Origin: a virus
IMG/VR virus record: IMGVR_UViG_3300035698_019776
Span: 1 to 47,822 of that record
DNA: 47,822 nucleotides
Direction: 5' to 3' (one strand)
Shown here piece by piece: positions 13,775 through 39,125 of the stretch. Below the pieces are notes generated by a model. That model did no database searches and had not been told where the DNA came from. It saw only the letters and a list, made by a program, of their open reading frames with translations. The position numbers were made by a program, and so were the translations under genes. Position 1 is the first letter of the stretch. The number at the start of each line of letters is the position of its first letter.

Positions 13775-15463
13775 TCAATCATTATTAGTAGTTGAAATCT
13801 TAAGTATTCTTGCCCTTCTATCAATCGCGCTTGAAGCGAAGGTTCTCATGCCTAAGACGGTTACGTGGTAGTGGGGACCTGCAGTCTTACTCTCATCTAC
13901 AATTTTAATATCAAATTTGCCTTCTGCATTTACAGTATCAAGCAAGTGTTTTATACCATTAGTAATTGCGAAGTCAACCGCCTGCCCAGGGTTGGTAATG
14001 TGATGACTTCCAACTGGGCGGCTCTTTATAATCTCGATAGCCATAGATATCGCCCGAGGTTCGGTTCCATAATTTTCAAATATGTAAGAAATATCGCCAC
14101 CAAATTTATTGCCGTACAGCCATGTCAAGTACCTTCTTCCGCTATCTTTGCCACCATTGGATTTCCAATTTTTGGCCATAATCGTAGCTTGAGATTTTAA
14201 AGATCTCCACCCACTAGTTATAACTGGAGTTTTTACACCCATCTCGGAAGCCTTGAATGCAACCTCTCGAATGAATGCTTTAACATCGGGTGTTACATTT
14301 TCAATATTAACCCCAGGTTTTATTACAATGTTTAAAAACTTTGGCTGAACCTTTGATAAGTCTTCATCCGGCTCTAAATGTATATTACCGTCTGGCGATA
14401 TTAAGTTCAGTAATTTTTTTCTTCTTTTTTCAAAGTTACCCGATATGGGTGGCTCGATAATTTCTGTAGGATTATCTATCAAATTTTTCATAACTTCGAG
14501 TGTTTCTAGGGGACTTTTATGAACTCCCCATACCGAATTCATATTCTGCATATACCAGGAAGCCCACGAGTGATAACTACTGCTTGTTATTCCGGGAATC
14601 TTATAGTAATTAGAGTGCCACCAATCACTCAATTTTTGATGGTCTTCCCCCCTAGATTCGTACTGCGACCAGCTGTTGGCAATCGAGGCAGTCTTGTGAT
14701 CAAGCGCGTTGCTCTCTAAGTATTCAGATAGTAACTTGTTGCGGATAAGAACCTCCTTGAAGTGTCCAGATAGAGGTATGTTCTTAAATAAGTTCATTTC
14801 CTTAAGAAGTTTTATAGTTAGAAGTTCGTTCTCTTTCAAAGCCTTATTAATCTTAACTGTTATATACTTATCTTTAACCGATGAGCCAATGAAAATTTCT
14901 GGATTGTCAATTACAAAATTTTTAATTTCATCGTCTATTTTAAAATCATATCTGGCCGCAAGATTAACTGCTCTATAAATTCTTCTCGGATCATCAGTTA
15001 GTGTTATTTCTGCGGGTACCGGGGTTCTTATAATTTTGCTATCAAGATCTTTGATGGCCATCCCGGTGGGATCAAAGAATTCTCTAGTTACGAGGTCTTG
15101 ATGGAGGGTGTTTATTGTGAAATCTCTGCTGAAGGCTTCATGGAATTTTTTATGATCGGTGCCAAGGTAAGATGAAACCTTATCCGAAATAAAGTTACTA
15201 GAAAAGTCTAGATCAAAATAGTCTGTAAAGACTGTAGTATGGCCGTCATCGGATAATTCAAACGGAACATTGAAATTATCAGAGACCAAAATAGCTAGCC
15301 TTAAAACTTCTGAAGAATTAGTTGTAAGGTCTACATCCGGAGTCTTAACATCTTTTCCGGATAGATAAATATCTCTAGGAAGCCCCCCAACAGTATATGG
15401 AGTATCGATCATATACTGTTGCGATATTTTCTTAACTATTTCTAGTGTGTTCCAGAATTCCAT
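13775..15463 (-). CDS. CCA/poly(A)-polymerase-type nucleotidyltransferase fused to M15-like peptidase
   Basis: 562 residues. The N-terminal part is the head of the class II CCA-adding enzyme/poly(A) polymerase family: TPYTVGGLPRD (21-31), TPDVDLTT (41-48, acidic pair D43/D45), SRDFTINTL (112-120), FDPTGMAIKDL (130-140) and TDDPRRIYRAV (156-166). The C-terminal part from about 375 looks like an M15 (VanY-type) zinc peptidase: VITSGWRSLKSQ (414-425), SHHITNPGQAVDF (486-498, ligands H487 or H488 and D497) and AGPHYHV (528-534, H531/H533). The first activity would add nucleotides to RNA; the second would cleave peptidoglycan peptides. Both key residue sets look intact. The gene lies in the terminase region. 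Start: GGAG seven bases upstream. Confidence 0.82.
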   Translation of the reverse strand: MEFWNTLEIVKKISQQYMIDTPYTVGGLPRDIYLSGKDVKTPDVDLTTNSSEVLRLAILVSDNFNVPFELSDDGHTTVFTDYFDLDFSSNFISDKVSSYLGTDHKKFHEAFSRDFTINTLHQDLVTREFFDPTGMAIKDLDSKIIRTPVPAEITLTDDPRRIYRAVNLAARYDFKIDDEIKNFVIDNPEIFIGSSVKDKYITVKINKALKENELLTIKLLKEMNLFKNIPLSGHFKEVLIRNKLLSEYLESNALDHKTASIANSWSQYESRGEDHQKLSDWWHSNYYKIPGITSSSYHSWASWYMQNMNSVWGVHKSPLETLEVMKNLIDNPTEIIEPPISGNFEKRRKKLLNLISPDGNIHLEPDEDLSKVQPKFLNIVIKPGVNIENVTPDVKAFIREVAFKASEMGVKTPVITSGWRSLKSQATIMAKNWKSNGGKDSGRRYLTWLYGNKFGGDISYIFENYGTEPRAISMAIEIIKSRPVGSHHITNPGQAVDFAITNGIKHLLDTVNAEGKFDIKIVDESKTAGPHYHVTVLGMRTFASSAIDRRARILKISTTNND

Positions 15464-23653: not shown

Positions 23654-25324
23654 TTAGTGCTTATGATTCAAGCCGTTATCCTTGGGTAGCCTATATCCAG
23701 CTGGCGGCTGCCAGCCGGACTGATTATTAGGGTTATCAGCTATAACAGCGTCTGTTGTAATCAATAACTGAGCAATACTGACTGCATTTTCTAGCGCAGT
23801 TCTGGTTACCTTCCTGGGATCGATTACACCCATAGATACCATATCGCCGTAATTACCGGTAGCTGTATTGTACCCCGTATTTGGATTTTCTAGTAACATT
23901 TCTAGGAAGCCTTTATTAGAGAGCACAGCTTCGGGGTCTAGTTGTCCGTTGCGGATAATCTGTCTTGCCGGCTCTCGACAGGCCTCTAGGAGCACCTCTG
24001 CGGCCTGCCGCCATTCTTTCCGCACTCCGGGCAGGGATTTGGTCTCGACGCCCTGAGCGGCGCGCCAGAGGGCAAAGCCGCCGCCAACAACAAACCCTTC
24101 ATCTATGGCGGCCCTAACAGCAAACATAGCATCTTCAACTCTATCTCCGAGCTCTCTTAGTTCGAGTTCGGTTGAGTACCCTACTGTAATTACGGCAACC
24201 TTACTTCTTAAAAATCCGAGCCTAGACAGTGTTAATTCGCGATCTGAGTCGCTTAGAAGGATTGTTAGGGCTTCTTCGCAGATACTAATTCTATTGGCAA
24301 CCATCTTTTCATTCTTATTGGGGCTAACTATTTTAGTCTGATATGAGTCAACAACTACGCTCTTGGCTAAACCCAGGTGGCTAATCTTAAAGTTTTCCCA
24401 CGGTACTCCAAAGTCTCCGCCAATAACTGTAGCTCCAGTTAATGCAGCTAAGTCTTCAATCCACGTATGTTGCAAGCTTCCAAACTTCGGAGTTCTGATA
24501 ACACAAGCTCTTAATCTTCCCGCTTGAAAATTCTGAATCAAGAACGACAGCCCTTCTTTCTTTGCATCCTTACATATAATTAGAACATCTTTCTTCAGCT
24601 GAGCTATGGACTCGATCGCTTTGGATATTCCAGTATCCGCCAATGTGGTTATTTCCTCATCGCAGAAAAGAATAACACAGTTTTCCATCTCCCTCTTCGT
24701 CTCACCCTTATCTAAGAATCCGGAAGATATATATCCTGACTTTAGCTCGATTCCGTCAACAACACGAAAAGAGTGGCTTACTCCCGGATGAGCCTCTGCC
24801 GTAACTGATCCATCACGATCTACGGCTATATAAGCTCCCGCAACTACCTGGCCGAGAGCCGAATCATTATTAACTGAAATCGTTGCTACATCTATCAGGG
24901 TCTGGTCATCATCTACGGGTTTTGATAATAATGACAGCTCATTCACGATAGCGCTCTTAGCCCAGGCGATTCCATCTCGAAAATCAAGTGGACTATAGCC
25001 AGAATTTATTAGGTCAATGCCGCCTTTGAAAATTGAATAAGTCAATACGGTGGCCGTGGTGGTTCCATCTCCAGCTAAGGCAGCAGTTCTTCCGGCAGCC
25101 TCTTTAACCAGCTGGCATCCAAGCTCTTCAATCGGGTCGTCAAGAACGACTTCTCTAGCTACGGATACTCCATCCTTAGTGATGGTCGGGGCACCGATAG
25201 ATCTACCTATAATTACATTTCTTCCCCTAGGACCCATAGTAACTCTTACCGTTCTAGCTAGCTTTTCAACTCCGGCCAGAACCCTTAGTCTGGCGTCATC
25301 GCCATATTCCATAATCTTTCCCAT
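23654..25324 (-). CDS. groEL: GroEL-type chaperonin
   Basis: 556 residues, a near full-length Hsp60 subunit. Equatorial features include ARTVRVTMGPRGRNV (23-37), ITKDGVSVAREV (48-59, D51) and the nucleotide site AGDGTTTATVL (84-94, D86); the intermediate/equatorial C-terminal pattern VEDAMFAVRAAIDEGFVVGGG is intact. The apical domain has YISSGFLDKGE. The usual Gly-Met tail of GroEL is missing and replaced by KDNGLNHKH. No GroES-like gene is visible in the window, so the chaperonin may use host GroES, a co-chaperonin encoded elsewhere, or work alone as in phage EL. GAGG lies four bases upstream of the ATG. Some internal stretches are more GC-rich than neighbours. Confidence 0.95.
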   Translation of the reverse strand: MGKIMEYGDDARLRVLAGVEKLARTVRVTMGPRGRNVIIGRSIGAPTITKDGVSVAREVVLDDPIEELGCQLVKEAAGRTAALAGDGTTTATVLTYSIFKGGIDLINSGYSPLDFRDGIAWAKSAIVNELSLLSKPVDDDQTLIDVATISVNNDSALGQVVAGAYIAVDRDGSVTAEAHPGVSHSFRVVDGIELKSGYISSGFLDKGETKREMENCVILFCDEEITTLADTGISKAIESIAQLKKDVLIICKDAKKEGLSFLIQNFQAGRLRACVIRTPKFGSLQHTWIEDLAALTGATVIGGDFGVPWENFKISHLGLAKSVVVDSYQTKIVSPNKNEKMVANRISICEEALTILLSDSDRELTLSRLGFLRSKVAVITVGYSTELELRELGDRVEDAMFAVRAAIDEGFVVGGGFALWRAAQGVETKSLPGVRKEWRQAAEVLLEACREPARQIIRNGQLDPEAVLSNKGFLEMLLENPNTGYNTATGNYGDMVSMGVIDPRKVTRTALENAVSIAQLLITTDAVIADNPNNQSGWQPPAGYRLPKDNGLNHKH

Positions 25325-27549: not shown

Positions 27550-27846
27550 TCACATTCCTAATCTCTTTTCTATTTGCTCTATTCTAAACTTAATAGATTC
27601 TTGCTCGTTTATCCACTTTTCAAAACTTCTCAACCTCTGGTTGAACATGAGGTTCTGAAAGAATAGTATTAAAACTACAGGAACCGTGCTTGATATGGGT
27701 GGAAGTATTGACGTAATATGACCTTTATCATTTGTCTTAATTAGACCTGAAAATGAATCTTTCCCAAATACCTTCTCTAATTCTAGGTAGTAGTCATATT
27801 CGTCTTTACTTACATCTACCTTCTGATTAGATATTACCTTAAACAT
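27550..27846 (-). CDS. Small putative membrane-anchored protein with C-terminal coiled coil
   Basis: 98 residues. It has one hydrophobic stretch at about residues 50-68 (PISSTVPVVLILFFQNLMF) flanked by a K/D/E-rich N-terminus and a basic C-terminal helix with heptad character (EKWINEQESIKFRIEQIEKRL). The stop/start overlap TAATG joins it to the zinc-ribbon gene upstream. Either a membrane anchor or a hydrophobic oligomerisation helix is possible. No family recognised. It precedes the possible UvsY-like gene. Confidence 0.68.
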   Translation of the reverse strand: MFKVISNQKVDVSKDEYDYYLELEKVFGKDSFSGLIKTNDKGHITSILPPISSTVPVVLILFFQNLMFNQRLRSFEKWINEQESIKFRIEQIEKRLGM

Positions 27847-28412
27847 TATCCTAGCCTTGATACACCTTTAAAGGAATGACCCGGACTTTTTAACTTGCTG
27901 TTTACGCCTTCCTTAATCTTTCTGGACTGATGAATTCTTTTTAGCCTATCTGCCTTATTATCTATATCATAATCAGAGTTACCAAATGCTGATTCTCTGA
28001 TATCCTCTTCATCATCTTCTGGAAGATATTCATTCTCATCCATAAGTTCAGAAAGATATTCTTCCTCTATTTCTTTCTTTATATCCTCTAATGCGATGTC
28101 TTCGGTATCAACACTTTCGGAGCCAGCAGATGCAGAAGATGATTTTTTCTGTGCAGATATCATATCTTGAAGAACGATCGCTCCGACTCCATTTTTAATT
28201 TCATTAAAAACAAATAATGACACATCATATATTTGCTCTTCGTTCATAGAGTCGGAAAATCTATGAGAGGCAACTCTGGACTGAATTGTCGCAATTAGAT
28301 TATTATCTTTTTGAGTAAATAGAGGAGATCCGCAGGATGGGCAAACATTTTTCATTAAAGCAAATTTCATTGCTTCGGTCACATTAAATTTGCAAGAATT
28401 ACAAGATTTCAT
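27846..28412 (-). CDS. Zinc-ribbon protein with acidic linker
   Basis: 188 residues. Two cysteine pairs at the N-terminus (C4/C7 and C24/C27, CNSC and CPSC) make a typical zinc ribbon of about 30 residues. Residues 34-80 look folded, the centre (100-160) is D/E-rich and probably disordered, and the C-terminus is basic (KLKSPGHSFKGVSRLG). The shared motif CKFN ... KFAL links it to the small zinc protein at 22115-22459. It begins just after the C-terminal half of DnaE. Role unknown; a replication or transcription accessory is plausible by context. Confidence 0.75.
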   Translation of the reverse strand: MKSCNSCKFNVTEAMKFALMKNVCPSCGSPLFTQKDNNLIATIQSRVASHRFSDSMNEEQIYDVSLFVFNEIKNGVGAIVLQDMISAQKKSSSASAGSESVDTEDIALEDIKKEIEEEYLSELMDENEYLPEDDEEDIRESAFGNSDYDIDNKADRLKRIHQSRKIKEGVNSKLKSPGHSFKGVSRLG

Positions 28413-28414
28413 TT

Positions 28415-29452
28415 TTACTTACCCAATGCCTTTTCTAATGTCGTTAAGGATAATCCCTTCTGTTCCATATATTCGTCGACCTTGCATATTGCCCGAATTG
28501 GTGTACCATCAATCAATACGCTGTTGTATATTTCATAATCTGATTGCCAAACTGTAAGCTCCGCAGTAGAACCTTGCGCGTCTTCAATTAAGTATTTGGC
28601 AAATTTCTTACCAACATTTTTACCATTTTTAATCTTAAATTCTTTAATTTTAGAATTAATAATTACTTCGATTTTAACTCTCTCTCCGGAGTCAATGGAG
28701 GCTATTTTTCGAAGCGGAGTGACATTAGAACCGCGAGTAAAAAAGCCTTCAAAAACTTCGTGTAAGGAGCCGCTGATAACTCTTCCCAGAGCTTCTCTTT
28801 CGGCCATCAGGAAGTCCTTCCTGTTCCACTCCTCATTATACGTCGGAAGTATAATATCTTCTAACTTTTTTTCTTTTTTTATTTCTAAAGATACCTTTGC
28901 TCGGTATTTTGCGAAGTTATCAAAGATATCTTTTCTCTTCCGATTAAAGCAACTAAAGGCTCCGCATTTGGCCATAGCCTCCATAACTCTCTTATTTACG
29001 ACACGAGCATTTGTTCTATAAAAGAAATCTTCGAGACTTGAAAATGGCTGTAGAGATATGATTTCATCTATAGCTTTCTGACCCACACCCTTTATCGCCG
29101 ACAATCCGGTTGCGATCTCTTTTTCGCCAGTAATAACATAATTTCCCTTGCTTGTATTAACATTTGGAGGCGTAATTACTATGCCCATATTAGAGCATTC
29201 ATTGATGTACTCCAAACTCTTATCACTGTTTGGATCTTCGCTATTTAGCAGCGCGCACATGAATTGAGTTGGATAATTGCATCTAAGCCAAGCTGTATAA
29301 TAGGATATATGAGAATAAGCGATCGAATGAGAGTTGGATGTCAGAACTCCATTGGCTAGATAAAACTGATGGTCCTTATGGTTGACTTCTATGTCGTGTG
29401 TGTTACCTGATTCGATTTCTTTTATAGATTTTATTTTAGCTGCTAGATGCAT
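28415..29452 (-). CDS. dnaE: DNA polymerase III alpha (DnaE), C-terminal half with split intein C-domain
   Basis: 345 residues. Residues 1-40 are an intein C-terminal fragment: block F THDIEVNHKDHQFYLANG (18-35) and block G VLTSN (36-40), ending in Asn with penultimate Ser. Residue 41 is the +1 Ser of the C-extein SHSIAYSHISYYTAWL (41-56), which continues the conserved GFNK/SHS motif of the DnaE finger domain. The rest holds the helix-hairpin-helix region (ATGLSAIKGVGQKAID) and an OB-fold-like part. After trans-splicing with the N-half product the mature subunit would be about 1088 residues. The start ATG has GGAG upstream. It is separated from the N-half gene by a 114-residue ORF. Confidence 0.92.
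   Translation of the reverse strand: MHLAAKIKSIKEIESGNTHDIEVNHKDHQFYLANGVLTSNSHSIAYSHISYYTAWLRCNYPTQFMCALLNSEDPNSDKSLEYINECSNMGIVITPPNVNTSKGNYVITGEKEIATGLSAIKGVGQKAIDEIISLQPFSSLEDFFYRTNARVVNKRVMEAMAKCGAFSCFNRKRKDIFDNFAKYRAKVSLEIKKEKKLEDIILPTYNEEWNRKDFLMAEREALGRVISGSLHEVFEGFFTRGSNVTPLRKIASIDSGERVKIEVIINSKIKEFKIKNGKNVGKKFAKYLIEDAQGSTAELTVWQSDYEIYNSVLIDGTPIRAICKVDEYMEQKGLSLTTLEKALGK
29333..29452 (-). other. Split-intein C-fragment (IntC)
   Basis: Forty codons from the ATG encode IntC, from MHLAAKIKSIKEIES to the terminal VLTSN, a length normal for split inteins. The +1 residue is Ser (first of SHS). The SN ending parallels cyanobacterial DnaE inteins, where the penultimate residue is Ser rather than the more common His. 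Confidence 0.88.
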
Positions 29453-29475
29453 GTGCTCTCCGTTGCCTTCCTGAT

Positions 29476-29481
29476 ATTATA
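29476..29481 (-). promoter_or_regulatory. Candidate -10 box upstream of the DnaE C-half
   Basis: A perfect TATAAT occurs on the minus strand at 29481-29476 in the 78-base gap before the DnaE C-half gene. A start site would lie near 29469, about 17 bases before the ATG. No convincing -35 box is seen at the standard distance, so it would need the phage sigma factor or an extended -10. AT-rich sequence makes chance matches common. Confidence 0.3.
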
Positions 29482-29530
29482 TAGTACGTTGAACGCAGAA
29501 TATAGTCTAATAAGTTTTAAATAATTTGAA

Positions 29531-29875
29531 TTAAAGTTTACTTCTCGCTATTGAGTCATAGTAATCATATAATGAGCTGAACATAAAGGACTCCAGCGTA
29601 ACTCCCTGAGGAGGTCCCCAAACAAAACTATCAAATGCGATTGTTCCCGAATCTTTAAAAATTAAACCTTGCTGATCGATAATCGAAGTATTGTCCCCAC
29701 AGCGGTAATAATTTTTATAAAATTGGCTGGCATTATTAGCCAAATCCATTTCATTAACTTCGAGCTCTATAACTATATATGCAATGAGATTTTCAAGAAC
29801 CCTCTGGCTGCTCAGGTTGAGTATTCTACAGGTTGTGAAATACTCCCAGTTATAAATATACGGTAAGGATTTCAT
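29531..29875 (-). CDS. Unknown protein encoded between the two split-intein halves
   Basis: 114 residues starting MKSLPYIYNWEYF at ATG 29875, overlapping the stop of the N-half DnaE by an ATGA. The frame is open further upstream but would then lie inside dnaE; the ATGA start implies coupled translation. The protein has a helical, hydrophobic centre (RVLENLIAYIVIELEV), an NYYRCGDNTSIID segment, and an aromatic C-terminus (WGPPQGVTLESFMF). No homing-endonuclease motif (LAGLIDADG, GIY-YIG, HNH, PD-ExK) was recognised. Its position is exactly where other fractured genes carry a nuclease ORF, but function is unknown. Confidence 0.75.
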   Translation of the reverse strand: MKSLPYIYNWEYFTTCRILNLSSQRVLENLIAYIVIELEVNEMDLANNASQFYKNYYRCGDNTSIIDQQGLIFKDSGTIAFDSFVWGPPQGVTLESFMFSSLYDYYDSIARSKL

Positions 29876-32538
29876 GAATGGTTCCATGAGCCAATACATA
29901 CTTCTAGATCTTCTCCGGCTATCTTCCATAGCGGCTCCATTCTTCCACAAGATGTTCTAAACTTATGGTCGATGGTACATCTCGTAATAGAGCCGTCTTC
30001 TAGCTCTACTTCGTACAGGACCTTGGCTCCATTATTATGATTGTTTAAAACTTCAACCATTATATTCTCTCCGGTCTCCTCATCTCTAGATGGGACAAAG
30101 CATCCTGGAGCTACGTCTTTAATCATTGTGAGAGTTCCGGACGAGCCTATGGAATCAAAAACTACTAGCTCTGTAGTATCGGCAAGGCACTTATTGAAGC
30201 CATAGAGTCCAAATGGAAGTATTTCATTATCCCATATATCCTTGGCATCCTTGGGCTTCATTTTGGAATGACTAATGCAGTCATTAATGAAGCTGATTTC
30301 AGTTCTAGAAACCATAGCCGGGTCTTTACCTTTCAATTTTGTGATCTTCCTTAGGGAGTCGGCCTGGTTGAAGTTCCAGCCGGCACAGTCCTTGGCTATC
30401 CTCATCATTCCCTCTTCATAAAGGCTTACTCCATGAGTTGCTTTTAGGGCTGATGATAGATTTTCATGACGATACTTCGTCTTTTCTCGTCCAGACTTTC
30501 TATTTATATAAGACTCTCTCTGCTGAGAAGAACATGATGGTCTACCGAGAGCATTTATGTCTGATATCTCTCCAATGTTTTCAGGCTTGATCTTTATGCA
30601 AAGCGGCGTTAAGGATGATTCCAGCTGAAACACTCCCGAGGTGCCGCCGTCGCCAAGCATCTCAAAAGTCTTGTCATCATCAAGAGGAATATCTTCTATG
30701 GATATGTCCTTGCCCAGCGTTCTTCTGATAAGTTCAAATGACATCTCAATTACATTTAATGTATTTAAGCCTAAAAGGTCCATTTTAACTAGTCCATTCT
30801 CCTCACACCTTGACTTCTCCCACTGAGTAACTACAAGGCCAGTCTCATCATCAATTCTGAGTGGAACCGTTTCATAAAGAGGTCTATCAGAAATGACGAC
30901 GCCTGCCGCGTGAACGCTCCAGTTTCTAGTTAGTCCCTGAAGCTTTACCGAATTTTTATATAACTCGGGGTACTTCTTCATGTATCCGCTAAACTCTGCA
31001 CTCTGCCTGCACGCCTCTTCGATGGTTGGTGCATCCGGCATTATTGATGTTAGATGATTTGCTATCTTAAACGCTGCCGACCTATCCCCCCCTATCTCCA
31101 AGCTTCTGGCTACATCCTTAACAATAACCTTAGGTGATAGGGTTGACCAGTTGCTTATGGATGCAACTTTATCTTCACCATACTTATTCCTAAGATATTC
31201 TTTAACTGCAGCTGGATTTGAAAAGTCGGAATCAATATCTGGAAAGCTTTTCTTCTCTGAGTTATGAAATCTCTCAAAGATGAGATCGTATTCTATGGGA
31301 TTAACATTTGTTATTCCGGTTAGGTAAGCCACAAGCGATCCGGCCGCCGAGCCTCTTCCCGGTCCGGCGTAAACACCGTTTTTCTTTGCCCAAGTTGTAT
31401 AGTCAGAAACGATAAGCATATATGACGAGAAGTCTTTTTCTTCGAGAACGGACAGCTCATTTTGAACTCGTGACCAGTATTGCTTATGAGTTTCTTTATC
31501 CATATCCTTAAACTTGCCCTTAAACCCCTCAATGCACTTATACCTAAGATATGATTTATCCTCAGATACTGGGTCTTTCTGCTTTCCGTGCCACTTCTTG
31601 AATTCAGGATAATCATCGGAACTCTTAACGGGAAACTTTGGAAGAACTGGGCCCTTCGGCTCTATGTAATGGGGCATCTCGCACATATTATTTATAAGCA
31701 TGGAATTTGCCATTCCCTTCTCGGCTATCTCTTTACCGAAGAAGTCTTCGATTTCCTCATGCGTCTTCAGGTACATATCCTGAACCCCGTACCGAAATCT
31801 ATCGGGATCGTTGACCGGCTTCTTATCTTTGATTGCCAACATAAAGTCGTGATACTTCGCGTGATCCTTATCTCTATAATGAGAGTCACAGGTTATTACG
31901 TATGGAATTTTCATATCAGAAGACAGCCTAACCAGGCTTTCGTTTAGCTTCTTCTGGTTTACTTCGCCAGACTTATTAACCGCATAAAGGTTATGCGGCT
32001 GAATCTCTAAGTAAAAGTTATCCCTGAAGATTGAATTTAATCTATTGATATATTCTTTAGCCCTCTCCTCATCATTATCTGTGATTAGAGTTTTAGCTAT
32101 CAAGCCGTTGGAGCAGGCTGTGAGGGCAATAACGCCCTCATTGAAATTCTCTATATGCTCCCAGGTTAACCTGGGAGTTTTCTTTCCCATATATCCTGAC
32201 GCCTGATTCTTATATGCCTCGTAGTTAAGCCTAAGAATATTTCTATATCCGGCTTCATTTTTCGCCAATAAAACCATATGATTGCTTTTCTTGGATGTTA
32301 AATCCGCAGAAAAGTAAGCTTCAATGCCCGGAATTAGCTTAACTCCAGTCTTCTTGCTTGCCTTCCACGCATCATATATTGCCGTCATTGTTCCGTGATC
32401 GGTTACCGCAACAGCGGGATGATCGACTTCTTTGGCTCTAATAAATAGATCCTCAACGTCGTTCATTCCATCTAGCGGGCTTCCCATTTCAGTATGGTTG
32501 TGAAGAGATACAAATTTTCCAGTGGATTTATTTGACAT
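29872..32538 (-). CDS. dnaE: DNA polymerase III alpha (DnaE), N-terminal half with split intein N-domain
   Basis: 888 residues: 783 of DnaE then 105 of intein. The replicative polymerase starts with a PHP domain (SLHNHTEM 11-18, TDHG 46-49, PGIEAYF 70-76, CDSHYRDKDHA 217-227), whose metal ligands look intact. The palm has GPGRGSAAGSL (392-402) and FPDIDSDF (432-439, catalytic D436 and D438); the third acid is D587 in VKMDLLGL. The sequence then runs GLYGFNK (777-783) directly into intein Cys784. The intein N-domain shows block A CLADTTELVV and block B EDGSITRCTIDHKF. The stop overlaps the next ORF's ATG. A 13-codon upstream ORF ends on the dnaE start. Confidence 0.95.
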   Translation of the reverse strand: MSNKSTGKFVSLHNHTEMGSPLDGMNDVEDLFIRAKEVDHPAVAVTDHGTMTAIYDAWKASKKTGVKLIPGIEAYFSADLTSKKSNHMVLLAKNEAGYRNILRLNYEAYKNQASGYMGKKTPRLTWEHIENFNEGVIALTACSNGLIAKTLITDNDEERAKEYINRLNSIFRDNFYLEIQPHNLYAVNKSGEVNQKKLNESLVRLSSDMKIPYVITCDSHYRDKDHAKYHDFMLAIKDKKPVNDPDRFRYGVQDMYLKTHEEIEDFFGKEIAEKGMANSMLINNMCEMPHYIEPKGPVLPKFPVKSSDDYPEFKKWHGKQKDPVSEDKSYLRYKCIEGFKGKFKDMDKETHKQYWSRVQNELSVLEEKDFSSYMLIVSDYTTWAKKNGVYAGPGRGSAAGSLVAYLTGITNVNPIEYDLIFERFHNSEKKSFPDIDSDFSNPAAVKEYLRNKYGEDKVASISNWSTLSPKVIVKDVARSLEIGGDRSAAFKIANHLTSIMPDAPTIEEACRQSAEFSGYMKKYPELYKNSVKLQGLTRNWSVHAAGVVISDRPLYETVPLRIDDETGLVVTQWEKSRCEENGLVKMDLLGLNTLNVIEMSFELIRRTLGKDISIEDIPLDDDKTFEMLGDGGTSGVFQLESSLTPLCIKIKPENIGEISDINALGRPSCSSQQRESYINRKSGREKTKYRHENLSSALKATHGVSLYEEGMMRIAKDCAGWNFNQADSLRKITKLKGKDPAMVSRTEISFINDCISHSKMKPKDAKDIWDNEILPFGLYGFNKCLADTTELVVFDSIGSSGTLTMIKDVAPGCFVPSRDEETGENIMVEVLNNHNNGAKVLYEVELEDGSITRCTIDHKFRTSCGRMEPLWKIAGEDLEVCIGSWNHS
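29875..30189 (-). other. Split-intein N-fragment (IntN)
   Basis: Codons 784-888 of the N-half ORF. Starts with catalytic Cys1 in CLADTTELVV and has block B with the His of CTIDHKF. At 105 residues it is close to the roughly 102-residue IntN of cyanobacterial DnaE, and it shares the pattern LEDGSxxRxTxDHKF with it. There is no endonuclease domain within the fragment. Confidence 0.88.
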
Positions 32539-32645: not shown

Positions 32646-33062
32646 CTAGCCTACAAGATCGGCTATACTAGAGTATACCTCCGTAGATACTGCCATATCT
32701 ATATCCTGCTTTAAGGCCTTGATAGCTAGGCCGATTTCTTTTCTAGGAACTCCGTCTTGCTTTGCATCGTAAATTAATTGCTTCTTTTCTTCGATGCATT
32801 CTTCGACAATTTCCTTATAAGACTTAATGACAGGACTTTCGCTGATAATCTCTTTTCTGCGCTCTCGAAGCTTCTTAATTTCATCATCAATTGTCTCTAT
32901 CTCATCATTTGACGAGATAGCTTCCTTGAGATCATCTCTAGCCTCTTTTATCTTTTCACTGACTTCATCTAAATTTCTAACGAATGCCCTGATTGTATTT
33001 CTGTCTGCTACCTGCGGCGGCCCTGCCAGTGGATTTATTGAAACGTCTGCGCTCTTAGTCAT
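32646..33062 (-). CDS. Coiled-coil hypothetical protein upstream of dnaE
   Basis: 138 residues. Nearly all helical with heptad-like charge patterns from residue 30 to 90 (VSEKIKEARDDLKEAIS, DDEIKKLRERRKEIIS), followed by EECIEEKKQLIYDAKQDGVPRKEIGLAIKALKQDID. The latter half resembles GapR-like or DUF2312 sequences (an ExKxxIxxDAKxxG pattern and a C-terminal helix), though this could not be checked. GapR-type proteins bind overtwisted AT-rich DNA; if so, it would suit replication. Start supported by GAGGAAC ten bases upstream. It is separated from dnaE by about 100 bases. Confidence 0.62.
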   Translation of the reverse strand: MTKSADVSINPLAGPPQVADRNTIRAFVRNLDEVSEKIKEARDDLKEAISSNDEIETIDDEIKKLRERRKEIISESPVIKSYKEIVEECIEEKKQLIYDAKQDGVPRKEIGLAIKALKQDIDMAVSTEVYSSIADLVG

Positions 33063-33086: not shown

Positions 33087-36000
33087 TTAGAAGTTTGGCA
33101 ACCTGACCTCCGACTCATCGAATACGCCAAGTGATAGTATAATACCTTCGACCTTACTTTTTCTTTGTTTTATCTTATTAGAATATTCTGAAGATTCATC
33201 ATCTGAGTTCTTGTCGTGGGCTGGATTTTCTCTTTTGTTTGATGTTCTTTGCCTGATGTATTGCAGAGCCTCTGATTCTATTTTATCAGCAAATGATGGT
33301 TCATCTTGATTCCCTGAGTTAAATAGCGTATTGAAGCCAATTGATTTATCGATATTTGCCGCTGAAATTAAATCAGATATAACGGGGTGCTTTCTGCGCG
33401 GACTGCTGGAAAAAGAGTATGGCTTAATATACTGAAGATAACTTCCGGCCCTACCGATTTCGCTTTTACCGGACTCATCGGGTATAACATCATAGAATCT
33501 ACCAAAAGCTCCAGAATAGACCTCCATCAACTCTTTTGAAGTAGAGCTATTTACTGATACTCGGAACTTTTCCGGCTCAGATATGATGTCTTCTGGCGTG
33601 ACCTCCTTGCCCTTTGCTTTTGATATTACGGAAGCAACTACGTCTAACTTATAAACACTTACGACAAAAGCTTTGTACATATGCTTCTTTTTTGCAGATA
33701 GAGTAACCCCTCTGGTCTCCGGGTTTTCAATAATCCTATAAGCGGAAACGGGATCTAGCAAGCTGACTGATAGCATTCTAGATGCCGAACCCGTTCTTGC
33801 GTTATAATGATTGGTTCCGGAAAATACACTTAAATTTTTAGAATTTATCTGCCTGAGAAAGGGCTTAGACTCTTCTATTATTTGCCTGCTGAGATCTCTC
33901 ATTAGACGTTGCAGCTCTTTAATTCCGGCCTTAAAGTCTTCCTTTAACTCTTTATCATCGAGTGAAGACATTCCTATTGCCAGCTTAGTCTGATTTGTTA
34001 CATAATCTTCCATTTGCTTTTCATACGTCTTTTTAATAGCTATAATCTGGTCTTCATTATACTTTAGGTCTGTAATTCCAGAAATCTCTTCCTGTAACGC
34101 GGAGTTAGATGTATCACTCTTTGAGTCAACTCTCATCAAGAATGATATATCGAGCGGCTCACCATCAAAGTCTATAACAAACTTGTAGGATGGTATAGCT
34201 ACCCTTGAGGCAAGACTCATTTTAGATTCAGAACCTCCAGCTGGATCGAATGGTAAAATTATATTTACAAAGTTAAATTGGTCTTCGCTCGGAGGCCATG
34301 ACATATCTTTTGCATTTTTCTGGTCAAACATACCTATTTGGAGTTTGCTTGAGTTAAAGTTATACCGCGGATTCTTATAATATGAAGCCTCAAATACTTC
34401 GTGATCATTGTGAGCTAGTGAGTTTGCAAAATTAACGGCCTCTTCTTCTGTGGCAAATGATTTAAACCTCTGATCGGATTCTTCATTCTCGTTTGTAAAC
34501 ATCTCTCTAACTATCCAGCCTTCTTGCACAACCCGCATTCCAGGTTTTGACAGGAAGTTTAGACCTTTCTTTTCATCTTTTTTGCTCAGCCTTGGAAGCC
34601 TATCTACCGTAAGATGCCTACCACCAGACTCGGGGCTGTCTATAGTTCCGGAAAACGACATTGTTGAGGTTGGAGAGGCATTGCTGACTTCTTTTAAAAT
34701 AGCCCCCAATCTTATGGAATTCGAGCGAACATTCTGATTCAAAGAGCCCTCAGAATTAGATATCAATAGCTCCAGCCTATCAGCAAGATACTGATTTGAC
34801 AGGCCGGAAACTCTTGGTGATGCCGCAAAAACCTTGGCAGAAGCTAGACTTATATTGATACGAGACCAAGCTTTATCAATATTACCAATGCTCACTAGAT
34901 CTTCCATAGCTCCCTCGCTATTCATCATTCCGGACAAGCCCATCAGTTGACCATTCTTGTTGGCCTCTTTGACGGTGGAAACAATAGAGTCTACTTCGTT
35001 TTTACCATAGCCGGCAACCCACCCAGAACTACCTGGGTATCCCATAATTTTCTTTGAATTGCTCAAGTCTATACCGATATCATATCCTATGTAATCTGGG
35101 GATTTCTCATCAGCGCAGAATTCGGCATACATAGAGCTTAGTGAGTCGGAAACATGCTGAGCGTAGTTTATCAAAGCGATCTTTGCAAACCCTCTAGACC
35201 TGTATATATTCTTGCTTATCCTAGACCTAGATATCAAAGTTAATTCTTTGTAAAATTCAGAATTTTCATCAATAATATCAGAAGATAGTTTCTTTATAAA
35301 TTCTTCTATATCCTTCGCCTTACCGGATGGCGGAACTAGGTATCCGGTATGGGTTGGTGTTATCTGCCACTCATTGGATACATCCTTTAGGGATGCGGAT
35401 ATGATCTTTTTCGCAACGCCCTTTGCGAAATCCTCATCATCATATATCGTGTATATATTACTTCTTGTCCAATCATAAAGCTTTGCGCATTTATCAGACA
35501 AAGACTCTTCAAATTTCCTCATAAAAGCAGATATCAGGCCGGAAACTATTTCTGGCTCTTCCTTGCGAACTTCTATATCTGGATCTTCGGAATTATAAAA
35601 ATCGATATGTCCTGATATTTTTGACTTTAAGTAAAAGCTATACTTCTTCACATCAACTTTGGCATCGTCAAGGATGGAGTTAATCATTGCGTCGTCAATT
35701 ACTCCGTCTGTCCATGTTCTAATTAGTCGAATTGAGGATTCTATTAACCTTGCAAATGATTTCATTTTAGCTTCGGCTATTTCAGCTCCAGAGCTTTCGT
35801 TAGTTAATCTTACAGATATTGGTATATCCGCAAGTCCGCTGCTAAAGAAGTCGCCCTCTCTTTCGTCGGCCTCTCCCTGCTCGAAAAGATCGACGGCGTG
35901 TTTGTCCTCTGCTACAGCAGACTCTTCTCCAGAATATTTTATAGACGATGTTTCGAGATAATATTCGGAAATAATTCCTCCAGTTCCAGTGGAAGAACCG

Positions 36001-39000
36001 TTAGCATTCCAGATATTTACCGAGTTGCCCTTATTTGAAAACCCTTTAATGAAAACAAAATCCTCATATACGGCATTTGTTTCGTCGATAGGCAGCGTAA
36101 ACGAAAGAACCGGTCTTTCAGGGTTTTTTGCATCGGGAAATAACACTCCATCATCTAGTTTAGACCATTCGGCATAGGGGAGTATGGTAAAGGATACTAG
36201 CCTCGGATCACTAGCTGGGACCAAAACCTCCATAGAATCAGAGACGCCACGCATCCCGTCGGGGTTGATAGTTCCATAGTCAAGCCGATCAAAAGTGCGC
36301 AAGATTTTCTTGATATTATCTTTACCGTAAGAATTAAGAAGGTCCACCATATAGTTGCCACTCACCCCAGCTTTTGCCGAAACTGGAGAATACTTCGACT
36401 GAGAGCTGACGATGTTTAATCCTGCGTTAGCTTTTGCGAATTTCATGCTGTGGCCGATGTTAAATGTATGACCAAGCGGGCAAACTAAATTCAGGCCGGA
36501 TATAAGCTCTCTTTCTAGATCGTTATTGATGGTAACTAATGCGGAAACCGAAGAGCTCTTAATCATACCAAGTATCTTATTAACCCTGGAAGAAATCTTA
36601 TTTAAATCTATTTCATCATCCTGCGATGTATATTGATCAAGACTTTGATCAATTAGCATCATGTCATCTACGCCTATTCCATACCTGATTAGTATATTTA
36701 CCATGGCGGCATATTTCTCAACCGAACCTCTTCTAATATCTCTCAAGTATTTGAGTATATATCCGTTGCTTGACTCTCTTCTATCAAACATCGATATAGA
36801 GGCTGGTGCCCCGCAAACAGAGAATAGCAAGGTTCCTTCCGGAAGTACCTTTTCTTTACCCGTATGGTCGGTTGGATTAACGAAGCCCTTGGTACCTGAT
36901 GGGCCAACCTTGGATAAAGCTGCGACACCACTCGAATACTTATTTACAGATTGAAAATCTTCTATATGGCATGTGCAAGAAAAACTGACTCTTGAAAACT
37001 TAGGTCCGGGTTTCGACATTTTATCTGCAATATTTTTCTCAGGAGATTTGCTTGCTGATATAGAGTTGGTATACTCAGAATTTCTAACTTTTTTGTCCTT
37101 TGTTCTGATAGCGTTCCATTCCGGCTGTAAAGATAATTCTGGAGGTAGAGTCGTATTAACCTTTTTTAGTTCTATTCCGCAACCACCATACTCCTCGGTG
37201 GGGCAAGAGAATTTCAAAGAATCAACTGATATGGACGGAGAAATTATTGCCCCTCCGGCTGCAAAAAGTGCGCCAGCCCTTCTGTGTATACCCTCCTCAT
37301 ATTCTTTAGGAACTGAGCTGCTAATAAGATCAGATATCTGGTCCCAAGTCTTTTCGCCAGAATATTTAGATATAATCTCTCTCTCTCTCTGGTCGCGATA
37401 TAGTTTTAGAGGCGGAAGTGGCCAAGGCCTAGACTTCAAATAGTCTAGAGTTATCTTATATGTTCCGTCAATTTCCCGACCTCTGTAGAAAGAAACCAGA
37501 GGGAATGTTATCTTTACCTTTGAGTACTTTTCGCCGGAGTACGGTATATACTTAAAGCAAACGGGACATGGAGCGAGCCTTAGAGTAACAGAAGTTCTAT
37601 CTCCATTCAAATCCTGTTTAGATTGAAGATAGATCGTATCAAGACTCAAACTGATAGTGCTTAAAAAGTTTTTAGAACTTAGCATGGTTCTAAGATCAAA
37701 GTATTCTTTAATCTTTCTATCAGTTGTATCGCTAGAATTCCTCTCAATTATTGATAGCACCTCTTGCTGGCGAGATTCGTCAAGTTCTCCGGCAGTAATC
37801 ATCTTCTTCTTAACAAATGCCTCACGATGCCTTGCCGAATGAACAACCGATGTTACGGCGGGCGATGATAGGTACATTGATGACAGCAAGAATTGTCCAC
37901 GAATTTCTGAAGCCTGAAAGCTATTAATCAAGATCTTGGTTGGAAGAAAGTTATTTAACTTTTTCTCAACCGCCTCATACTTCGGAATGAGTTCCTTCGG
38001 TATAGAGCTGTCTTTTTTATATTTCATAAATTCTGACATAGCTTCATAATCAGTCTTTTTAGCCGCATACATTAAGTCATTAAGCTCTCGCTTAGTGTTA
38101 AAGTCCGGACCCTCACCTTTCTCGATAAGCTGCGTTACTTTTTTTGATATTTCCTGGATCTTGCCGCTTATTGTAAAAAATACGTCCTGAGCCTTTCTGT
38201 CTAAAAATACTGGACCATCATCAGTGTAGTCAACATATGGATTTACAGACCATGCACCAATCCCCAGATTATCGTTAACCTCGTCTTCATCGATAATAGA
38301 TTTTGTGTGGTGAACGTCTAACCTCTTATTAATATTTTTCCTGCTGACATTTAACTTTGACCTTCCTGAATCATAATGATGGTCTTCCGGATTCTGCCGC
38401 TCTTCTTCTTCTTCTTTCTTTTTACGGTTATTCTCACCCCTATCGAAGATAGAGCTGAGCGGTAATATCGCAGTTGCTGCCTCTTCCTCATCCAAACCGT
38501 TATTATGATCTTCGATTATTTTAAATAGCGTTAAGATACCATCAAGCATGTTATTTCTGAATTTATACTTTTTGTTATCAGGCGTTCTATTTGATGATAA
38601 TATGTTGCTGTTTAGTTCTATATTTTTATAGAGAAAGGTAGCCTTATTTTTAGAAATTGGGTTAAGGCTAGCTGGGATAAGTTCCTTCATTTTCATAACT
38701 TCGGATGCTCTATCCTCATCATTCATATTGACAATATCCGATGGATCTGGAGGGCCATCGACCTTGAGATCTCCGGGAGAAGGTGACAGGGGCGTTACCG
38801 GATTAGCAACAAGAGGAACGGGTAACTTACCAGTTGCCTCAGAGTGAATCTTTTTAATGCTTTCAGATATGTCCGAAAATTCAGATGAGGAGAAGTTAGA
38901 TTCACCTATCGCAGAAATTATAGACTTAAGCTGAGATGCCCCATATTTATTATCTGCAACGCTTGCTATAGAATCTTCTAAGCTCTTCTCATAAACCAAA

Positions 39001-39125
39001 TTTTCATGAACCTGGCTTAGATCCTGGATGTATATGTCGATTTCGTTTGATTTGATTCTGGATAAAATCGTTAAAAGTGCTGACTCGTTTGTGAATATAA
39101 CCTGGGCAACTTTATTTATTTTCAT
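33087..39125 (-). CDS. Giant (2012-residue) unknown protein with four cysteine clusters
   Basis: 2012 residues, the longest gene in the window. Only local features are visible: cysteine pairs CPVC (about residue 519), CPTEEYGGCG (about 641), CTCHIE (about 715) and CPLGHTF (about 880), which may form zinc sites; a charged linker with a D/E/K-rich low-complexity patch around 230-260 (NRKKKEEEEERQNPEDHH); and a beta-rich section near residue 1630 (FNFVNIILPFDPAGG). No signal peptide, transmembrane helix or catalytic motif was recognised. It sits between an unknown 470-residue gene and the dnaE unit. Possibilities include a virion protein ejected with DNA, or a nucleic-acid-binding assembly factor; neither is supported. 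Confidence 0.8.
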   Translation of the reverse strand: MKINKVAQVIFTNESALLTILSRIKSNEIDIYIQDLSQVHENLVYEKSLEDSIASVADNKYGASQLKSIISAIGESNFSSSEFSDISESIKKIHSEATGKLPVPLVANPVTPLSPSPGDLKVDGPPDPSDIVNMNDEDRASEVMKMKELIPASLNPISKNKATFLYKNIELNSNILSSNRTPDNKKYKFRNNMLDGILTLFKIIEDHNNGLDEEEAATAILPLSSIFDRGENNRKKKEEEEERQNPEDHHYDSGRSKLNVSRKNINKRLDVHHTKSIIDEDEVNDNLGIGAWSVNPYVDYTDDGPVFLDRKAQDVFFTISGKIQEISKKVTQLIEKGEGPDFNTKRELNDLMYAAKKTDYEAMSEFMKYKKDSSIPKELIPKYEAVEKKLNNFLPTKILINSFQASEIRGQFLLSSMYLSSPAVTSVVHSARHREAFVKKKMITAGELDESRQQEVLSIIERNSSDTTDRKIKEYFDLRTMLSSKNFLSTISLSLDTIYLQSKQDLNGDRTSVTLRLAPCPVCFKYIPYSGEKYSKVKITFPLVSFYRGREIDGTYKITLDYLKSRPWPLPPLKLYRDQREREIISKYSGEKTWDQISDLISSSVPKEYEEGIHRRAGALFAAGGAIISPSISVDSLKFSCPTEEYGGCGIELKKVNTTLPPELSLQPEWNAIRTKDKKVRNSEYTNSISASKSPEKNIADKMSKPGPKFSRVSFSCTCHIEDFQSVNKYSSGVAALSKVGPSGTKGFVNPTDHTGKEKVLPEGTLLFSVCGAPASISMFDRRESSNGYILKYLRDIRRGSVEKYAAMVNILIRYGIGVDDMMLIDQSLDQYTSQDDEIDLNKISSRVNKILGMIKSSSVSALVTINNDLERELISGLNLVCPLGHTFNIGHSMKFAKANAGLNIVSSQSKYSPVSAKAGVSGNYMVDLLNSYGKDNIKKILRTFDRLDYGTINPDGMRGVSDSMEVLVPASDPRLVSFTILPYAEWSKLDDGVLFPDAKNPERPVLSFTLPIDETNAVYEDFVFIKGFSNKGNSVNIWNANGSSTGTGGIISEYYLETSSIKYSGEESAVAEDKHAVDLFEQGEADEREGDFFSSGLADIPISVRLTNESSGAEIAEAKMKSFARLIESSIRLIRTWTDGVIDDAMINSILDDAKVDVKKYSFYLKSKISGHIDFYNSEDPDIEVRKEEPEIVSGLISAFMRKFEESLSDKCAKLYDWTRSNIYTIYDDEDFAKGVAKKIISASLKDVSNEWQITPTHTGYLVPPSGKAKDIEEFIKKLSSDIIDENSEFYKELTLISRSRISKNIYRSRGFAKIALINYAQHVSDSLSSMYAEFCADEKSPDYIGYDIGIDLSNSKKIMGYPGSSGWVAGYGKNEVDSIVSTVKEANKNGQLMGLSGMMNSEGAMEDLVSIGNIDKAWSRINISLASAKVFAASPRVSGLSNQYLADRLELLISNSEGSLNQNVRSNSIRLGAILKEVSNASPTSTMSFSGTIDSPESGGRHLTVDRLPRLSKKDEKKGLNFLSKPGMRVVQEGWIVREMFTNENEESDQRFKSFATEEEAVNFANSLAHNDHEVFEASYYKNPRYNFNSSKLQIGMFDQKNAKDMSWPPSEDQFNFVNIILPFDPAGGSESKMSLASRVAIPSYKFVIDFDGEPLDISFLMRVDSKSDTSNSALQEEISGITDLKYNEDQIIAIKKTYEKQMEDYVTNQTKLAIGMSSLDDKELKEDFKAGIKELQRLMRDLSRQIIEESKPFLRQINSKNLSVFSGTNHYNARTGSASRMLSVSLLDPVSAYRIIENPETRGVTLSAKKKHMYKAFVVSVYKLDVVASVISKAKGKEVTPEDIISEPEKFRVSVNSSTSKELMEVYSGAFGRFYDVIPDESGKSEIGRAGSYLQYIKPYSFSSSPRRKHPVISDLISAANIDKSIGFNTLFNSGNQDEPSFADKIESEALQYIRQRTSNKRENPAHDKNSDDESSEYSNKIKQRKSKVEGIILSLGVFDESEVRLPNF

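Follow-up and report, generated by a model that had tools for sequence, protein, structure and literature searches.

The cyanobacterial DnaE split inteins (Npu, Ssp) reside in the same host protein as the element described here and are, in sequence and in fold, its nearest solved relatives; an acidic N-half and a basic C-half are features of these inteins. Genes cut by split inteins and accompanied by free-standing endonucleases were reportedly described as "fractured genes", in eight enzyme types, by Dassa et al. in 2009 (NAR 37:2560, as cited in PMC6892783 and PMC7090010). Phage replicative polymerases are split in a similar way. In phage PolB polymerases, split inteins are found in Aes123, CP21, and LCGC14 (PMC12707363), and in phage MIJ3 an HNH gene lies between the PolB intein halves (PMC6892783). 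We analyzed the entire IMG/VR virus record IMGVR_UViG_3300035698_019776 (47,822 bp; hereafter the window, to which all window coordinates refer), in which the gene of the replicative polymerase DnaE is divided by a split intein into two genes, dnaE-N and dnaE-C. The literature searched, with many subscription papers outside its reach, yielded no report of a phage DnaE split intein of this kind. Trans-splicing of two separately translated precursors is the best explanation of the locus, and we hold it with good confidence, its evolutionary part included; the splicing function alone, predicted from gene structure, homology, junction, and conservation, is highly probable.

Cys1 of the intein is residue 784 of the 888-residue upstream open reading frame (ORF). 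The downstream gene begins with an ATG of its own and encodes 40 intein residues ending in LTSN, followed by SHS. The two genes are 419 bp apart, and in this interval every one of the three reading frames on the coding strand is closed by stops. Each intein half is carried on its own extein by a separate ORF, the second with its own start and ribosome-binding site. A first-pass annotation of this DNA, made from the letters alone, had given the ORFs, their coordinates, and the strand correctly to the base, and reading the ORFs bore out its N-intein of 105 residues from Cys784 and its C-intein of 40 residues followed by Ser+1. The mature DnaE, for which it had estimated about 1088 residues, would have exactly 1088 (783 + 305). 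An ORF of 114 residues that occupies most of the gap (29531-29875) had been missed.

The joined product contains, in order, the domains of a C-family DnaE. Pfam detected PHP, DNA_pol3_alpha, and finger domains in dnaE-N and HHH_6 in dnaE-C (E = 8.8e-36, 1e-73, 1.3e-36, and 8.2e-23, in that order), and in phrog_405 (DNA polymerase) residues 3-783 of dnaE-N corresponded to profile positions 38-793, while dnaE-C from residue 40 corresponded to positions 793-1055. The predicted spliced sequence aligned through the junction with some 30 related contigs in which dnaE is uninterrupted; in most of them the N-extein match ended at one base and the C-extein match began at the next. The exteins join at GLYGFNK/SHS, as had been proposed, with no residue gained or lost relative to the uninterrupted dnaE of related phages. 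A group I or II intron as an RNA-level explanation was rejected, as no Rfam match was found in the window.

In an alignment with 14 relatives, all splicing residues were kept in the window intein: Cys1, the Thr and His of CTIDH, the Asp and His of HDIEV..DHQ, the terminal SN, and Ser+1. This is the residue set of a class 1 intein (nucleophile at residue 1, TxxH, C2 Asp, terminal Asn, and Ser, Thr, or Cys at +1). The joined halves matched the Npu DnaE split intein 2keq in phmmer (E = 2e-10, residues 30-145, the first ~29 residues lying outside the match), and an AlphaFold2 model of the continuous homologue L045 (pLDDT 81) found NpuDnaE 4kl5 as its best PDB match (E = 1e-10, TM 0.78/0.86), both in agreement with a class 1 HINT domain. 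The joined halves also matched gp41-1 (E = 2.5e-5), and a profile built from the relatives matched the DnaE intein 7qil (E = 2.4e-19). No intein closer to the window's own was found.

Compared with the cyanobacterial DnaE inteins, the window intein is split at the same position and likewise has a Ser before the terminal Asn. Its insertion site, read directly as FNK/SHS, lies three residues downstream of the cyanobacterial site, which we take to be Y/CFN, and its +1 residue is Ser where the cyanobacterial one is presumably Cys. Unlike those stably inherited inteins, the phage family is mobile and patchy. With the phage PolB split inteins it shares the division of a replicative phage polymerase and, in the case of MIJ3, an endonuclease gene between the halves, but PolB is not a C-family DnaE, and those inteins are Ser1, as are most relatives of the window intein, whereas the window has Cys1. 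The Rhodococcus phages Dorin, NiceHouse, Weasels2, and Grayson have a Cys1 intein in the same gene at the same FNK/SHS site; theirs, however, is continuous in one reading frame and only 22-24% identical to that of the window.

A database search with the C-intein alone returned 51 loci, every one in DnaE at FN[x]/SH[S/A]. Removing repeats and adding the window gave a set of 46 loci on uncultivated-phage contigs, 44 split and two continuous (without the window, 43 and two of 45). The catalytic motifs, the Npu DnaE match, and the seamless junction relative to intein-less relatives with the same neighbors support the earlier claim that this phage DnaE contains a split intein. Nothing was found to support the further suggestion of an efficient trans-splicing pair, given that most relatives do not show the acidic-N/basic-C charge pattern and that the charges of the window halves are -10/-1. 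That the arrangement is unusual held among the cultured phages opened (the Rhodococcus phages, continuous intein only) but not among uncultivated phages, given the 43 other split loci.

A hidden Markov model (HMM) of the relatives' endonuclease detected an endonuclease gene in the gap of 31 of the 44 split loci, frameshifted in one of them. These ORFs matched phrog_9084 "homing endonuclease" (2.4e-11) and, at a level under the cut-off, DUF559; with their motif KQxD..IIExDGPxHF..LIRVS they appear to be Vsr-like. Four split loci (L183, L196, L177, and L222) have short gaps with remnants only, including an endonuclease tail, PGIHFIG, adjoining the C-half. The other nine, the window among them, have no recognizable Vsr-like gene; some of these gaps are nearly empty, and others hold unrelated genes. 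Foreign cargo reaches 3.5 kb in L079 and 4.6 kb in L002, with TnpB, methyltransferase, and TadG-like genes (named from reading the sequence); the gap of L205 contains a different endonuclease-like ORF and that of L181 a long ORF. The nearest DnaE relatives of the window, L034 (=L002) and L079, at ~72% identity, both belong to the class without a Vsr-like gene, and L002/L003 (two metagenomes) and L079 share the split site of the window. The family resembles the fractured genes in that a phage-type replication gene is cut in two by an intein whose break falls at the endonuclease position, with a Vsr-like gene between the halves in 31 relatives; the window differs in having no free-standing endonuclease between its halves, only an orphan ORF. 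In L045 (6950-7010) the continuous intein has an internal Met exactly at the start of the split C-half, and its linker resembles the tail of the split N-half.

The nucleophile at residue 1 varies within the family. Ser or Thr occupies it in 36 of the 46 members, and the window, with Cys1, falls outside the Cys-less split inteins, which have Ser or Thr at both 1 and +1. At window position 53, His was found in 35 of the 36 Ser/Thr1 alleles and Asn in eight of the ten Cys1 alleles, the window being Cys1/Asn53. This column was the one most strongly associated with residue 1 (Fisher p 1.5e-6), but not significantly so on phylogenetically independent pairs. In Ser1 inteins an additional histidine, motif NX, is required (PMC10189870). 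His53 resembles the NX histidine; we do not claim that it is the same residue, as the preceding Arg/Lys required by PMC10189870 is missing and the column cannot be aligned to PolB16.

The only dnaE on the contig is fractured at the conserved finger motif FNK/SHS. According to the proposed mechanism, the intein halves of its two products would pair and fold as a single HINT domain, and trans-splicing would follow. Cys1 would attack the Lys783-Cys1 bond, the N-extein would be passed to Ser+1, and Asn40 would cyclize, leaving a native peptide bond from Lys783 to Ser+1 in a replicative polymerase of 1088 residues. The split itself would have arisen through insertion of a Vsr-like homing endonuclease gene into the intein between blocks B and F, where endonucleases usually lie. 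In the lineage of the window this gene may later have been lost, with an unrelated short ORF now in the gap; a former endonuclease is proposed here from the relatives, because no trace of it remains in the window. We propose that the split is maintained by the present need of splicing for a complete polymerase. An earlier proposal for DnaE is a succession of neutral changes that finally make splicing indispensable (PMC3403396).

The gap ORF could, on a doubtful alternative that would add to the splicing explanation, have taken over from the endonuclease as a new functional gene, either homing or regulatory, that keeps the element mobile. It lies at the position of the relatives' endonuclease, overlaps the dnaE-N stop, and has a weak coding signal (z 2.8). 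Against such a role, it had no Pfam or PHROG match, no relative in viral contigs, and no endonuclease signature, and its single-sequence AlphaFold2 model (pLDDT 37) gave no usable fold. A degraded endonuclease was likewise rejected, as neither a match to the relatives' endonuclease HMM (filters off) nor the C-terminal tail motif was found.

Mapping intein presence and absence on the extein tree (quick method) required at least eight gain or loss changes. L044 (split, with endonuclease) and L056 (empty) were close on this tree, and their junctions matched exactly. Between L038 and L044, synonymous divergence (dS) was 0.33-0.51 in the intein halves, while the flanking exteins were near or beyond saturation; the element therefore moved in recent time between older alleles. 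For the window and L079, nonsynonymous divergence (dN) of the intein halves was 0.50 and 0.30, with dS high or saturated, and in closer pairs dN/dS was ~0.03-0.26 where measurable. The intein halves are under purifying selection, judged from these sequence comparisons, and the window intein, for which no close relative exists in the comparison, is constrained relative to its saturated dS.

In some phages dnaE is cut more than once, as read from metagenomic contigs. Three-gene dnaE with two split inteins was found in two relatives, L004 (=L038) and L162. In L004 (1005-7146) the split inteins lie at GPARG/SSAGS and FNK/SHS, a different endonuclease-like gene occupies each gap, and each downstream piece has its own start. 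In L162 (2-11819 of a 250-kb contig) they lie at GPGRG/SAAGS and PDID/CDFEP, and the first gap exceeds 5 kb; the PDID/CDFEP intein seems to be split after block F, with a C-half of only ~20 residues. Split inteins at a second DnaE site, G.[GA]RG/S..GS, were also seen in L100, L102, L103, L104, L107, and L037; these gaps mostly contain a PDDEXK-looking endonuclease gene or remnant, and that of L037 also a D12 methyltransferase. These states could be the steps of a ratchet, for and against which we see about equal reason: an endonuclease gene invades a polymerase intein and splits it, shrinks to a tail, and is lost or gives way to unrelated genes, while the split is hard to undo and repeatable elsewhere, leading to three-piece polymerases. 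The window would be a late step, and the nucleophile in one allele would switch between Ser/Thr1-His53 and Cys1-Asn53.

Several observations weigh against parts of this explanation. The extein tree showed only two changes between continuous and split inteins, so that either the cis or the split state may have come first, and L045 is possibly a re-fusion of a split intein. The window intein sits on a long branch, and vertical descent with L034/L079 is one possibility for it (p-AU 0.357). No trace of an endonuclease was found in the window gap by HMM or tail search. The Pfam Intein_splicing match (0.011) fell short of the cut-off. The charges of the window intein halves are -10/-1, the acidic-N/basic-C pattern being absent in most relatives. 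Finally, in L102 (5969-12432) two breaks divide dnaE, a split intein and a plain fission without intein, with UDG-like and other genes between, so that intein-less fission of a phage dnaE is possible.

The last two points are also what would favor dead or slow intein halves, with the two DnaE pieces acting as a non-covalent complex: L102 is a related large phage in which a broken DnaE is apparently tolerated, and the intein halves of most relatives show no charge complementarity. This reading is improbable, as all splicing residues are kept, both halves are under purifying selection in closer relatives, the junction is seamless, and an unspliced C-half would keep an intein fragment within the finger domain. 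It is still less probable that the whole dnaE is decaying and the genome is copied by another polymerase of host or phage. Since the record lacks end repeats and relatives extend to 178 kb, it probably covers only part of the genome, and a further polymerase might lie elsewhere; but the domains and the PDID motif are intact, codon usage is native in dnaE-C and at the end of dnaE-N, the sequence is constrained, neither the window nor any of 15 related records showed a second intact dnaE, and relatives of 178 and 232 kb also have a single dnaE. An assembly or sequencing artefact hiding a continuous dnaE, with or without intein, is very improbable even for a single metagenomic contig, since no simple indel would produce a 419-bp gap that holds an ORF, together with a second start that has its own ribosome-binding site, and the split recurs at this site in L002/L003, L079, and dozens of other contigs.

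Table 1. Features of the dnaE locus and its neighbors in the window.
Feature	Position	Strand	Description
dnaE-N gene	29872-32538	minus	888 aa + stop; PHP, palm/thumb (DNA_pol3_alpha), finger domain, then N-intein
N-extein coding part	30190-32538	minus	residues 1-783, C-terminal GLYGFNK; co-linear with uninterrupted relatives up to 783
N-intein	29875-30189	minus	105 residues, Cys1 (CLADTTELVV), motif N3/block B CTIDHKF
Orphan gap ORF	29531-29875	minus	114 aa; ATGA overlap with dnaE-N stop; weak coding signal; no recognizable endonuclease
Probable ribosome-binding site GGAG	29458-29461	minus	5 nt ahead of dnaE-C ATG; read directly from sequence
dnaE-C gene	28415-29452	minus	345 aa + stop; C-intein, remaining fingers, HHH_6, weak OB-fold match
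C-intein	29333-29452	minus	40 residues; motif C2/block F HDIEVNHKDHQFYL, block G NGVLTSN, terminal Asn40
C-extein coding part	28418-29332	minus	305 residues, Ser+1 (SHSIAYS)
o27846, downstream neighbor	27846-28412	minus	conserved; same order in relatives with and without intein
o32646, upstream neighbor	32646-33062	minus	conserved

The block o32646-dnaE-o27846-o27550-o26982-o26274-o25618-GroEL-UvsX was largely kept in the compared relatives, and the gap contents are therefore insertions inside dnaE, not rearranged operons. The phage-encoded GroEL (23654-25324; PHROG chaperonin, E = 2e-126) lies next to UvsX in relatives too, and in L044 (12471-14000) UvsX itself seems interrupted (two tblastn pieces ~1 kb apart), possibly by another intein. 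Upstream of dnaE, a protein of 2012 residues (33087-39125) had no Pfam match; diverged relatives (~25-30% identity) occur at the same place in related phages. The window also carries a tRNA nucleotidyltransferase-like gene (13775-15463), yet no tRNA gene was found in it. A search of bacterial genomes for the host gave one distant match only (30% identity, on a contig of a Bacilli metagenome-assembled genome).

The origin of stable split inteins, the cyanobacterial DnaE ones among them, is an old question that has been argued mainly from end states. Here one intein allele shows the empty, continuous, split with endonuclease, split with remnant, split without endonuclease, and split with foreign cargo states, all in phages with the same gene order, and each step is therefore testable in the laboratory. 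The family also comprises ~45 natural split pairs, mostly Ser1 with Ser+1, a class of value in protein labelling of which few members have so far been characterized (PMC12707363).

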